From: Nitrososphaeraceae archaeon
Lineage (GTDB): Archaea; Thermoproteota; Nitrososphaeria; Nitrososphaerales; Nitrososphaeraceae
Direction: 5' to 3'
Length of the DNA: 46,042 nucleotides
Assembly (NCBI GenBank): GCA_016782225.1
Contig: JADDOW010000020.1
Location: forward strand, 1 to 46,042
In this document: positions 16,375 to 22,944 of the stretch, piece by piece
How the letters are laid out: each line of letters opens with the position of its first letter
Numbering within the stretch: position 1 is the first letter of the stretch
Translations under genes and position numbers: made by a program
The notes under the pieces: generated by a model
What the model was told of the DNA's origin: nothing
Seen by the model: only the letters and a program-made list of their open reading frames with translations
The model's database searches: none

Positions 16375-16449
16375 GGGCCGGTGGTCTAGCTTGGTTAAGA
16401 TACCGCCTTGACGTGGCGGGGTTCGTTGGTTCGAATCCGACTCGGCCCA
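16375..16449 (+). tRNA. tRNA-Val (anticodon GAC)
   Basis: A full cloverleaf can be drawn. The acceptor stem is GGGCCGG with TCGGCCC (one G-U), the D stem GTCT/AGAT, the anticodon stem CCGCC/GGCGG with loop TTGACGT (anticodon GAC), and the T stem GTTGG/CCGAC with loop TTCGAAT, then discriminator A. There is no intron and no encoded CCA. Its 3' part is repeated at 22431-22475, marking it as the integration target of the element to its right. Confidence 0.95.
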
Positions 16450-16724
16450 TATAATAATTTTATGTAATCATTAACTTCGTTGTAATTATTTGAATAATCA
16501 TGGCTATCAGATAACATATTTTTGTTCTGAGCAACTATTGAAGTGTTGCCTTTCATACTAGAAACTGTATACATTTTCTCATTTACCGTATACAGTTTTT
16601 TGTCTATTCCATAATGAATATTGCAGGTGTTGCAATAGTAGCCTATTTTCTTAAGTGAACCATTCACCCCTTCTCGGATATAGGTAGAGTTGATGCCATG
16701 GTAACAATTTTGGCATTTGGTCAT
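16395..16724 (-). CDS. N-terminal half of split integrase, with zinc ribbon (intN)
   Basis: A 109-codon frame that starts 275 bp right of the tRNA and reads leftward into it, ending inside the tRNA. Residues 1-40 hold a zinc ribbon, C4-x2-C7 and C31-x2-C34. A polar Asn/Ser-rich linker follows, then YGPSRIRTNEPRHVK, which is simply the antisense of the att core. The identical peptide opens the right-hand integrase part in the same frame, so circularisation would join them directly. The last three codons (AVS) are tRNA sequence and not original. As the gene stands it makes only the zinc-ribbon part, if anything. A DNA-binding or regulatory role of the ribbon in integration is inference. Confidence 0.75.
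   Translation of the reverse strand: MTKCQNCYHGINSTYIREGVNGSLKKIGYYCNTCNIHYGIDKKLYTVNEKMYTVSSMKGNTSIVAQNKNMLSDSHDYSNNYNEVNDYIKLLYGPSRIRTNEPRHVKAVS
16407..16451 (+). repeat. attL: 45-bp direct repeat within tRNA-Val
   Basis: Covers the anticodon loop through the 3' end of the tRNA plus two bases. 39 bp (16407-16445) match 22431-22469 exactly; after one C/G difference, five more bases match. Confidence 0.9.
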
Positions 16725-17256: not shown

Positions 17257-17408
17257 TTACTTTGTAAAGTCTTCTTCTTCGAAGTCAACAAATCCTATAA
17301 AGTCAACATCTTCGCATTTATCTTCAACTTTGTCTAATACGTTTTGCAAATTATCTCTTATTTCATCAACATTATCAGCTATTTCGCCTTCTTGAAGTTC
17401 TTCCTATA
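17257..17408 (-). pseudogene. Acidic small-protein remnant
   Basis: Minus-strand frame of about 49 codons, EELQEGEIADNVDEIRDNLQ at the start and VDFIGFVDFEEEDFTK at the end, with TAA at 17257-17259. It is strongly acidic and probably helical. It has no start codon and follows a stop; a short piece beginning MVKKNYSII lies in another frame just upstream. Together they look like a small gene broken by a frameshift. The family is unknown. Confidence 0.35.
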
Positions 17409-17712
17409 ATTGAATAATTCTTCTTCACCATGGTTTCTTAAGCCGGACTTTGCTGCAAGAGAAATGGCACATGGATGCAGTCCACGTTTACATTATTTCC
17501 ATTGTTTTCATAATCATTTTCGCTCGTATATGCCGACCTAAATATATCATTATTAGTATTACTATTATTTTTACTAAGAACAAATCTCTAATAGTTTTAG
17601 ATTATTTTTTTATTGTTATATTATTGTTTATTTCTACAAAAATATTAAGCAGAATAATTTTATATAATCATGTTAATAAAATTATAATAATTCTTAATAC
17701 TCAAAGAATTTA

Positions 17713-18622: not shown

Positions 18623-19029
18623 CTACAAGGTTAGTTCAAGTTCGATTATGGTTTGCAGTTCCTCTATCTCCCATATTTCGGATTCAAGGTATGGACTAAT
18701 TCTCTTGCTTTTCTTTTCTTTAATAATAACAAAAGAAGGAGTGGTCCAATCAGATGGTTCAATTTGTTCTAAATCTTTATCAATCCTTTGCTTTTCGTTG
18801 TGTAGCCACCTTATGAAATATTTTATTAGTTGCAGATAGTTATTCCCCGTCCTCATCCACTTTCCATAAGGATCTGTTTCCTTGCTTTTCATCTTTGTAT
18901 TGAGAAATGCAAGTATATGTCTTCTTTTTTGGTTAGTTGGTAAAAATCTCTTGTTGGACCTAAGAACTTGGCAAAGTTAATCAGTGCTTTGATGTTTTGA
19001 TTTTGATAACTTTCTGAGGTATTATTTAA
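18623..19029 (-). pseudogene. N-terminal part of a tyrosine recombinase, truncated
   Basis: The annotated-type frame (18623-18892) continues in frame upstream to a stop at 19030-19032 without a start codon. The whole reads NIKALINFAKFLGPTRDF, then KKEDILAFLNTK, then NNYLQLIKYFIRWLHNEKQR, then DWTTPSFVIIKEKKSKRISP and SEIWEIEELQTI. This is the SAM-like core-binding domain and hinge (KRLSPYSESEIW-type) of archaeal XerC-like recombinases. The catalytic domain that should follow is absent, since the frame ends at ELELTL. The N-terminus also lacks a start. It is a remnant of a second recombinase gene inside the element, unrelated in sequence to the SSV-type integrase. Confidence 0.7.
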
Positions 19030-20307: not shown

Positions 20308-20457
20308 ATGGCCGCAACTTTGAACTATCAAAAAGTACTGTCAGGTAGACGTATAACATTATCAGATGATATTTGTAAAAAATACAACATTAAGGAAGGT
20401 GATATTGTAATAGTCGATGATGAGGATTTTATAAAGATAACCCGCTCAAGTGATTAA
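20308..20457 (+). CDS. AbrB/SpoVT-type small DNA-binding protein
   Basis: A 49-residue protein reading MAATLNYQKVLSGRRITLSD, then ICKKYNIKEGDIVIVDDEDF, ending ITRSSD. This is a swapped-hairpin AbrB N-terminal fold: a basic strand (KVLSGRRITLSDDI), the KYNIKEGD turn and a final strand. Such proteins bind DNA as dimers and act as repressors or antitoxins. No toxin gene is obvious next to it; the small minus gene 10 bp away is its divergent partner. It is too short to carry a second domain, so a plain transcription regulator of the element is the best reading. Confidence 0.7.
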   Translation: MAATLNYQKVLSGRRITLSDDICKKYNIKEGDIVIVDDEDFIKITRSSD

Positions 20458-20523: not shown

Positions 20524-20679
20524 ATGATGTCTGATATTATGAAATGTAATAGTTGTGGTGCAATAAATGTTATAAAGCCAAATAAGGATGAGTCTTTGGA
20601 ACAATATATGAGTCAAAGAGTTTGTCCTCATTGTAATACTAAAGGCAATTGGACACAACAGACTGAGGATGAAGCTTGA
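20524..20679 (+). CDS. Small zinc-ribbon protein
   Basis: A 51-residue protein, MMSDIMKCNSCGAINVIKPN at the start, with two cysteine pairs: C8-x2-C11 and C33-x2-C36 (VCPHCNTKGNW). The pairs are 21 residues apart, as in a single zinc ribbon. The start may be either of two adjacent ATGs (20524 or 20527). Tiny zinc-ribbon proteins are common in archaeal plasmids and viruses; function (nucleic acid or protein binding) is unknown. It follows the AbrB-like gene by 66 bp and could be in its transcript. Convergent with the 88-residue gene across the iteron region. Confidence 0.65.
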   Translation: MMSDIMKCNSCGAINVIKPNKDESLEQYMSQRVCPHCNTKGNWTQQTEDEA

Positions 20680-20881: not shown

Positions 20882-21164
20882 TAGAACATCTGGAACATGC
20901 TAGAACATTTAGTGATGTTCTAGACTTGGCAACGATATTCGATACTAATAGTCCTACATTTAAATTAATTCGTTATTATTTACTATTTACATATAATATG
21001 TATCATATTATAATGGATATAGTTGTTGTTATAATAATAGAACATTAGAACATGAATATATCTATATCATATTACATTTTTGTATCAATATCCACCATCT
21101 CAGTAAAAATATTATTTGTTAAGGGCATGTGATATAGGGATGTTCCAGATGTTCTAATGTTCTA
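20882..21164. repeat. GAACAT iteron cluster around an AT-rich core (candidate origin)
   Basis: Nine copies of GAACAT or its complement ATGTTC. Plus-oriented copies start at 20884, 20893, 20903, 21040 and 21048; complementary copies lie at 20915-20920, 21140-21145, 21149-21154 and 21157-21162. Seven belong to the octamer TAGAACAT. The left and right arms are inverted: GAACATCTGGAACAT (20884-20898) is the exact complement of ATGTTCCAGATGTTC (21140-21154). Spacings of 8-12 bp are close to a helical turn. The 120 bp between the left arm and the middle pair is very AT-rich. It lies between two convergent genes, which argues against a promoter operator and for a replication origin of the element. 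Confidence 0.7.
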
Positions 21165-21218: not shown

Positions 21219-21485
21219 TCAACAATTGTTTTCTTTCAGTTGATCAATCATTGAATTTTGACCGACAATCAAAGCAATAATCAAAGGCGTAAACAAGCTT
21301 GGATCATCATTTTCCATGGACTTTATGGCTTCATAATGTTTGCAGTAGCTATTTGAAACCATTTTTGACAAAAGATGCCTGTCTTCCTCCGATGGCAGGT
21401 GTTCCATAAAGTCATTGAGTTGTTCCATTATTTTTTGATAGGTTTTGTCTTTTGGAGTTTCAGAGTTGTCCAAATATCTATACAT
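21219..21485 (-). CDS. Hypothetical 88-residue helical protein of the element
   Basis: MYRYLDNSETPKDKTYQKIM at the start, then an acidic helical stretch (MEHLPSEEDRHLLSKMV) and a hydrophobic helix (LFTPLIIALIVGQNSMIDQL). It looks like a small all-helical protein. It lies between the iteron cluster and the integrase and is read in the same direction as intC. I do not recognise it. A role in replication or copy control would fit the position next to the iterons, but nothing in the sequence shows it. The gene appears intact. Confidence 0.5.
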   Translation of the reverse strand: MYRYLDNSETPKDKTYQKIMEQLNDFMEHLPSEEDRHLLSKMVSNSYCKHYEAIKSMENDDPSLFTPLIIALIVGQNSMIDQLKENNC

Positions 21486-22420
21486 ACACCCTAAGCATAG
21501 ATGAAATATATAAAAATGGTTTATAGCCTGTAAATGACCCCCCCACTAGGACAATTCCTTTAACAATGTGTCCAACACCGGCTTTATCTTGTTAGTTATT
21601 ATCTCCTTGATGTCTGGTCTGTAGTAGTGGTTTACAAACACAGAGCTTGCAATCCTCCCCTGCAGCAAATCTATTATCTCGGGTTCAACACCGCTGTTTC
21701 TTAAAAAGGTAGCAAAAACCTTGCGGCAGTAATACATGTTCATGTCGACACCCCTTCTGTTTAGCAACAACTTTAGCGCATTATAGCTTTGCTTTGCAGG
21801 ACATTCCTTTGCTATGTCAATGATTGATTGATTTGCAATGCTTATGTAAACCTTCTTGGTCCGCCTTATGAATTCGTTTGCAAATTTATAGTGTTCCAGT
21901 ATTTCCTTGTCCTTGTCCCATTATTCGTTTAGGTTAGAGTGGATGCGGTAAATACACCTGAAAACCTCAATGGGTCTTAATCCTGTTACTGTATTAAATA
22001 TGAATAGATTGCCCTGTGGTTTTGGTAGGCTTGAAATTGTATGCTTTACCTGTCTTAGCATATCCACATAATTGGTACCGTTAATTATTTTCTCAAATAC
22101 CTTGAGGGAACCCTCTCCTGTTGACCATTTGATATCATATCTTTTAATTGCCTGCTTCCATAAATCATCACATCCACAAAACTTGGATAACGAAGATAAA
22201 GCCTTCATAATGTGGATTCTTTTGTTTGGGGAAAAGGTCAACAATTCACCAATTGTATCAGGGTTTAGGAGATAGCCACAATACCTCATGGAGTAATTGT
22301 ATCTATCATTTACTGTTCCTGTGTTACCATTTCTCTGTAGATATGTCCTATAGTCGGACCAGAAGTTTCGATTTGTGTTGACTGTGAGGGAACTCAAATC
22401 ACGCCTATTGGTATCATACG

Positions 22421-22440
22421 CCACGTCAGACTTGACGTGG
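22421..22440. repeat. 7-bp perfect inverted repeat at the edge of attR
   Basis: CCACGTC, six bases, GACGTGG. The right arm is the start of the att core (anticodon loop and stem) and the left arm is element DNA. The tRNA copy lacks the left arm; there the neighbouring sequence is the tRNA anticodon stem. It may be an arm-type integrase site or define strand exchange. Confidence 0.55.
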
Positions 22441-22475
22441 CGGGGTTCGTTGGTTCGAATCCGACTCGGGCCATA
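22431..22475 (+). repeat. attR: copy of the tRNA-Val 3' part
   Basis: Matches 16407-16451 over 39 exact bases, then one mismatch (G for C) and five more. It contains the anticodon loop, T arm and 3' acceptor strand, but upstream of it there is no tRNA 5' half. It marks the right end of the element and lies inside the intC frame. Confidence 0.9.
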
Positions 22476-22521: not shown

Positions 22522-22944
22522 ATGCAGTCCTCTTTGAATTTGGAAAATTCTGAGTATGGTGATGATGCCAGTCCTCTTGAAAACTTTCTTTTTGCTTTAA
22601 AGGCGCCTGAGACTAAGAGACAATATCCTAAACGCCTTGAGGTTTTCTTGGATTTTCTAAATTTGGGAGGCACTTTAGAAGACAAGGTGTTGGTTTTCCA
22701 TCAAAAATCCCTCAAAAATCCTGCATGGTTATCACAAAAACTAATACAGTTTATCCAATATCAAAAACAAAGGGTTCAAAGAAATGAAATATCCGAATCT
22801 ACCATTCCAAATTACTTTAAGGCGATAAAGCTTTTTTGTGTTATGAATGACATTACCATCAATTGGCAAAATTTAAGCAAGGGGTTGCCTACTGGAAAAC
22901 GTGCAGCAGAAGACAGGGCACCCATTATCTCGGCGGTTATGTAA
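22522..22944 (+). pseudogene. N-terminal half of a chromosomal tyrosine recombinase
   Basis: 140 codons from ATG at 22522, 46 bp right of attR: MQSSLNLENSEYGDDASPLE, then FLFALKAPETKRQYPKRLEV and FLDFLNLGGTLEDKVL, a core-binding domain, then WQNLSKGLPTGKRAAEDRAP at about 116-135. In this family the catalytic domain begins right after GKRAAEDRAP. Instead the frame turns into IISAVM and stops, because the DNA beyond belongs to an aquaporin gene on the other strand. So the gene is truncated at its 3' side at about 22925. It is a different recombinase family from the SSV-type integrase and belongs to the flanking chromosome, not the element. Confidence 0.7.

Follow-up and report, generated by a model that had tools for sequence, protein, structure and literature searches.

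A probable orphan iteron origin in a 6.0-kb integrative element of Nitrosocosmicus, related in design to the origins of archaeal PrimPol/SF3-helicase replicons

The GAACAT array described here, located in a contig of 46,042 nucleotides (JADDOW010000020.1, assembly GCA_016782225.1; this whole stretch is called the window below), is probably an orphan iteron replication origin. It lies in a 6.0-kb element integrated into the chromosome of a Nitrosocosmicus and, judged from sequence comparisons, would belong to the class of origins used by archaeal PrimPol/SF3-helicase replicons. These comparisons lend strong support to the original prediction, an iteron origin whose AT-rich spacers unwind: arrays of the same design are found 3' of PrimPol/SF3 replicase genes, and one of them coincides with the origin of pRN1.

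All nine GAACAT or ATGTTC hexamers reported earlier in about 280 bp were located, between positions 20884 and 21162 (Table 1). The spacing of 8 to 12 bp from hexamer to hexamer inside the groups was reproduced, as was the form TAGAACAT for seven of the nine. When the window was resampled 60 times with a Markov model, no hexamer with at least two G or C exceeded six copies per 280 bp. A count of the hexamer had been proposed as a check; GAACAT/ATGTTC is rarer than expected in the window (28 observed, 35.7 expected). In pattern searches of the 2.6-Mb genome, the tandem form GAACAT-N2-3-GAACAT occurred 16 times, compared to three times for the reversed-pattern control, and the majority of the 16 pairs are concentrated in a few arrays.

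The array consists of three modules, A (+++-), B (++) and C (---), with 125 bp from A to B and 92 bp from B to C. The last two hexamers of module A (20903+ and 20915-) form the hairpin TAGAACATttagtgATGTTCTA. Beyond the earlier description, a perfect 17-bp inverted repeat connects 20882-20898 in module A with 21140-21156 in module C. The array region folds as DNA at -35.3 kcal/mol, versus -20.0 kcal/mol in shuffles (z -5.1), with a 17-bp closing stem. The window array can fold as a long stem-loop and has two inverted arms of 9-bp period around an AT-rich core, both features of a pRN1-type origin. Against this reading, the element has stretches that are richer in AT than the spacers. As noted earlier, the array lies between convergent genes, a small zinc-ribbon-like ORF on the plus strand and the 88-residue ORF on the minus strand. 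The window also contains a short tandem cluster of AACGGC at positions 3-101, the very start of the contig.

Table 1. Coordinates of the array, of the element that carries it, and of similar arrays in viral contigs. Positions refer to the window unless a locus is named.
Feature	Position	Strand	Remark or basis
tRNA-Val(gac)	16375..16449	+	host attachment site
Integrase, N-terminal part	16395..16724	-	SSV-type split integrase; reads into att site
att core, left copy	16407..16445	.	39 bp, inside tRNA-Val
AbrB-like ORF	20308..20457	+	49 residues; beside no other GAACAT array examined
Zinc-ribbon-like ORF	20524..20679	+	51 residues; beside no other GAACAT array examined
Module A	20882..20922	.	hexamer positions: GAACAT 20884, 20893, 20903 (+), 20915 (-)
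A-B spacer	20921..21039	.	AT content: 119 bp, 79% AT (window 64%); candidate unwinding region
Module B	21040..21053	+	hexamer positions: 21040, 21048; two direct GAACAT, 8 bp apart
B-C spacer	21054..21139	.	AT content: 86 bp, 73% AT (window 64%)
Module C	21140..21164	-	hexamer positions: 21140, 21149, 21157; three inverted hexamers
88-residue ORF	21219..21485	-	integrase-linked; converges on module C; not a consistent array partner
Integrase, C-terminal part	21546..22475	-	from att site; C-terminal piece matches Pfam Phage_integr_3
att core, right copy	22431..22469	.	39 bp, in integrase frame; 6024 bp from left copy
GGAACAT/CCGGAAC arrays	L109 2343-2665; L110 near 2162-2500; L130 6982-7310		viral contigs

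The array sits within a 6024-bp element bounded by the two copies of the att core. As in SSV-type elements, the integrase gene is split by an att site in a tRNA gene, with intN and intC at the two ends; the C-terminal part is open except for one in-frame stop (21921-21923). Apart from the integrase, the genes of the element are small. In the part of a published survey used here, thaumarchaeal cryptic integrated elements are likewise small and carry integrases, one of them an SSV1-like split integrase, and many have no recognisable replication protein, as in the window element; that part of the survey describes no replication origin (PMC6563490). Directly beside the right att site, at 22522-22944, is the N-terminal portion of another tyrosine integrase, which suggests repeated use of this site. 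An 89-residue ORF at 18623-18892 has weak similarity (31%) to part of the Xer-like integrase of locus L045 and is possibly a remnant. The fragment of a secreted-protein gene at 17266-17412 has fuller copies next to the arrays of contig C110 in the same genome and of contig G010:C156 in a relative.

A search of related integrated elements, suggested with the original prediction, revealed that GAACAT arrays recur. The genome that contains the window has further arrays in C110, C107, C47, C16, C70 and partly C22; those in C22 and C70 are partial. Relatives with such arrays are G004, G010, G011 (two arrays), G013 (two) and G192. In a collection of 85,000 species, from which the window's own genome had been left out, the strict 24-base two-arm pattern was found in three contigs of Nitrososphaerales and in one other contig. 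The order integrase, 88-residue gene, array is common to the window, C110 and G010:C156. In C22 (locus L009, 4774-4906), a TGACAT array of the same design, with three hexamers in one direction and two inverted, lies between integrase fragments; the genome therefore harbors two specificities.

Three pairs of arrays were compared for conservation. Between C107 and C47, 52 of 55 hexamer columns are conserved versus 98 of 201 for the rest; between the window and G011:C51, the values are 49 of 60 versus 130 of 278. The comparison of C110 with G010:C156 revealed no difference (30 of 36 versus 151 of 186). The better conservation of the hexamers in two of the three comparisons suggests that these arrays may have a present function.

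The original prediction also placed the Rep or initiator protein among the small ORFs of the element, and this part found no support. Some GAACAT arrays have no 88-residue, AbrB or zinc-ribbon protein beside them, and on co-occurrence the three proteins were rejected as the initiator. Each of the 15 genomes of the genus has relatives of the 88-residue protein, in most cases with no GAACAT array, and its more distant homologues have no adjoining array of any hexamer. The scanned small ORFs of the element do not recur with GAACAT arrays and have no match to a replication family; a small winged-helix Rep beside the iterons, as in bacterial iteron plasmids, was not found among them. An HTH family with 18 matches in the own genome, some of them fragments, has genes near arrays at L009 8152, L052 2254 and L053 3129; the family was rejected as initiator, being near three arrays while most of its copies are without one. 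The protein type that recurs as neighbour of arrays of this design is a large primase-helicase, which is absent from the window element.

Although 12 of the 14 GAACAT arrays examined are not adjacent to a replicase, the other two lie directly 3' of a replicase gene, the position expected for a pRN1-type origin and one that the array in the window does not have. In G013:C160 (L046), the array is located 29-120 bp 3' of the stop codon of the replicase (helicase), with a PriX-domain primase gene on the other side. In G192:C280 (L193), from another genus, it is located 174-276 bp 3' of a replicase C-terminus that is 60% identical to that of L046. A TCAGGG array in G002:C8, flanked by a PrimPol/SF3 replicase on one side and by a primase on the other, has the same position as the GAACAT array in G013:C160. 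Because these three arrays adjoin replicases, we collected both types of replicase from 70 Nitrososphaeraceae genomes and scanned 35 of the 3' flanks blind; a hit was any hexamer with tandem pairs, spaced 8-10 bp, on each of the two strands.

Two-arm arrays with a 9-bp period were found in 16 of the 35 flanks (Fisher p = 1e-16). As controls, 241 pieces from elsewhere in these loci yielded none, and 3500 dinucleotide shuffles yielded 2; the remaining 19 flanks fail the strict exact-repeat test. The 16 arrays use 13 distinct hexamers, among them GAACAT, GTTACA, AGGGAC, GGTAAT, GGTGTC, GTGTCA and GTCACG. Four arrays (L279, L280, L298 and L303) have a three-module layout like that of the window, and the distances between modules are alike: 125 and 92 bp in the window, 109 and 93 bp in L279, 111 and 91 bp in L303, and 98 and 82 bp in L280. 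Replicases with the same hexamer are the most similar in their C-terminal 90 residues (TGTAAC in L279, L280 and L303; GAACAT in L046 and L193), a pattern that common descent alone could explain. With respect to the replicases themselves, the L248 protein matches a P4-family primase in NCBIfam (4.8e-47) and contains the domains Prim-Pol, D5_N and Pox_D5; L241, 56% identical to L046 over the C-terminal half, and L249 also carry Prim-Pol.

The same design is present in pRN1. TGTCCA occurs at +56 and +65 after orf904, with inverted copies at +135 and +144 (score 8, shuffle maximum 4), so that the array extends from about +56 to +150. A stem-loop of about 100 bp starting 54 bp downstream of orf904 was found to be necessary and sufficient for replication together with the replication operon (Berkner et al., PMC4234260), and the TGTCCA array coincides with this experimentally defined origin. 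Like the GAACAT arrays of L046 and L193, it is located directly 3' of the replicase gene and has inverted arms of 9-bp period around an AT-rich core; it differs in having one arm pair rather than the three modules of the window, and it was published as a stem-loop without iterons. Its authors detected no specific binding of the replication protein to the origin and took pRN1 to be without iterons; they also noted that the origin stretch is poorly conserved in sequence within the family while its flanks are well conserved (PMC4234260). Poor conservation of this stretch would follow if the word differed from plasmid to plasmid. By eye and with a mismatch, pHEN7 (CACCAC/CACAAC) and pRN2 (GGACCG/GGACAG) fit the design; the same inspection found no clear repeat in the arms of pSSVx and pDL10. 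Among methanogen viruses, arrays were found 3' of the replicases of Drs3 (TCAACC) and vir080 (GTTACT). Weaker arrays, without tandem pairs in both directions, are present in HAV2 and pORA1, and a similar scan of pGE2, pT26-2, pTI1, pCBA1220-04, pHTUR06 and Halalkalicoccus plasmid 5 detected no array above shuffles.

Bacterial systems suggest how such an origin might work. In SaPI Rep helicases, a C-terminal domain reads the iteron origin directly downstream of rep, and SCCmec helicases do likewise (PMC7581432). The archaeal design would resemble SaPI rep/ori and SCCmec Cch2 in having a self-loading Rep helicase, an iteron origin immediately 3' of its gene, and a C-terminal recognition domain. 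The SaPI system is bacterial and encodes its own Rep helicase, whereas the window element has an origin without Rep. The top Foldseek matches of the predicted C-terminal half of the replicase were SCCmec Cch and SaPI5 PriRep1, both weak (E 0.014-0.13, model pLDDT 69). Phage P4 alpha binds origin repeats (PMC4234260); it is linked to the present set through the C-terminus of the L248 protein, which scores as P4-family primase, but alpha has a TOPRIM primase where the archaeal replicases have PrimPol. By analogy, the intact form would pair an origin with a large replicase that has PrimPol at its N-terminus, an SF3-type helicase and a DNA-binding region at its C-terminus; the replicase gene would be followed directly, on its 3' side, by the origin. 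The C-terminal region would read the element-specific hexamer, as we infer from the SaPI and SCCmec helicases, and the oppositely oriented arms would load two helicase rings, face to face across the AT-rich spacer. The spacer would then melt, and the PrimPol domain would prime.

We consider the window array an orphan because the element and, as far as searched, the host genome are without a cognate replicase. Up to a distance of 6 kb, neither a replicase nor a recognisable remnant of one was found around the window array or around the other arrays in the same genome. Beside orphan arrays in general no remnant was convincing; one match, near the G011:C125 array, had an E-value of 0.044. The L046-type helicase was not found in the genome, an assembly of many contigs from which a plasmid could be missing. 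The array would therefore fire only if a helper supplies the replicase, or not at all. The latter would be expected of a relic, a former origin that decays without present function after loss of the replicase, and we give this version of the orphan origin about an even chance. The missing replicase, the stop in the integrase frame, the fragmented integrases in the related copies C110 and G010:C156, and the partial arrays of C22 and C70 all fit decay. All nine hexamers are exact, however, and hexamers far exceed the rest in conservation in two of the pairs above, with the third pair about equal. The other version, a satellite that kept a complete cognate origin and its integrase and relies in trans on a replicase made by a GAACAT-type plasmid in the same cell, is possible but on balance unlikely. 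It fits an intact origin next to a nearly intact integrase, the existence of cognate replicases in relatives, and the presence of several replicase-less loci of one specificity in a single genome; that no helper was found in this genome counts against it.

Other functions for the array would not involve replication. The hexamers could be accessory (arm-type) sites of the integrase or a recombination-directionality site, given that an integrase is near the array in the window, C110, G010:C156 and G013:C218. This is very improbable: the att core is 1.3 kb from the array, the arrays of L046 and L193 follow a replicase, without an integrase in the part seen, and the hexamer differs from replicase to replicase. 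Iteron arrays also form centromeres, and a partition centromere, or a multi-operator for a small regulator such as the AbrB, zinc-ribbon, 88-residue or HTH protein, is improbable as well. For the operator, C22, C70 and C16 each have an HTH gene whose start is about 230-260 bp away from an arm of the array; yet of the 18 matches of this family these three alone lie within 1.5 kb of an array, and among the array loci only the window has the AbrB and zinc-ribbon genes. No ParA-type partner was recognised for a centromere, and the pRN1 evidence, which points to replication, counts against both. A host chromosomal origin read by Orc1/Cdc6 would share the AT-rich spacers and flanking inverted repeats; we reject it as having next to no chance. 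In G003 and G005, both single-contig genomes, the GAACAT pairs that stand in tandem are not arranged as a two-arm array; G000 has several copies of the array, and the copy in the window is part of a mobile element.

Iteron origins beside self-loading helicases are already known in bacteria. Our literature searches found no arrays like these; the two-arm code shared by archaeal PrimPol/SF3 replicons and its orphan copies in small integrative elements appear to be new to the literature searched, and it appears that no replication origin has been described for thaumarchaeal mobile elements. Tentatively, one origin code (hexamers, 9-bp period, opposed arms, element-specific word) might be common to archaeal PrimPol/SF3 replicons, with small replicase-less elements exploiting it as origin satellites that carry the iterons of a helper plasmid. 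Such a code, if true, would explain the pRN1 stem-loop and the compatibility of pRN1- and pRN2-based vectors in one cell (PMC11139203). A simple sequence rule predicts an origin beside many archaeal PrimPol/SF3 replicases and points to hexamer identity as a basis of plasmid compatibility, the pRN1 origin gains a testable recognition code, and the arrays suggest vector parts for ammonia-oxidising soil archaea.

Viral contigs were scanned as well. With 18 fixed bases the matches were mostly due to chance; with the 24-base patterns three and two contigs were left, and the ORFs read in these gave no sign of thaumarchaeal origin. GGAACAT/CCGGAAC arrays (Table 1) are located directly 3' of primase-helicase-like genes of about 720-900 residues in viral contigs that are apparently bacterial phages. 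The arrangement of an array 3' of the replicase may thus extend to bacterial phage replicons.
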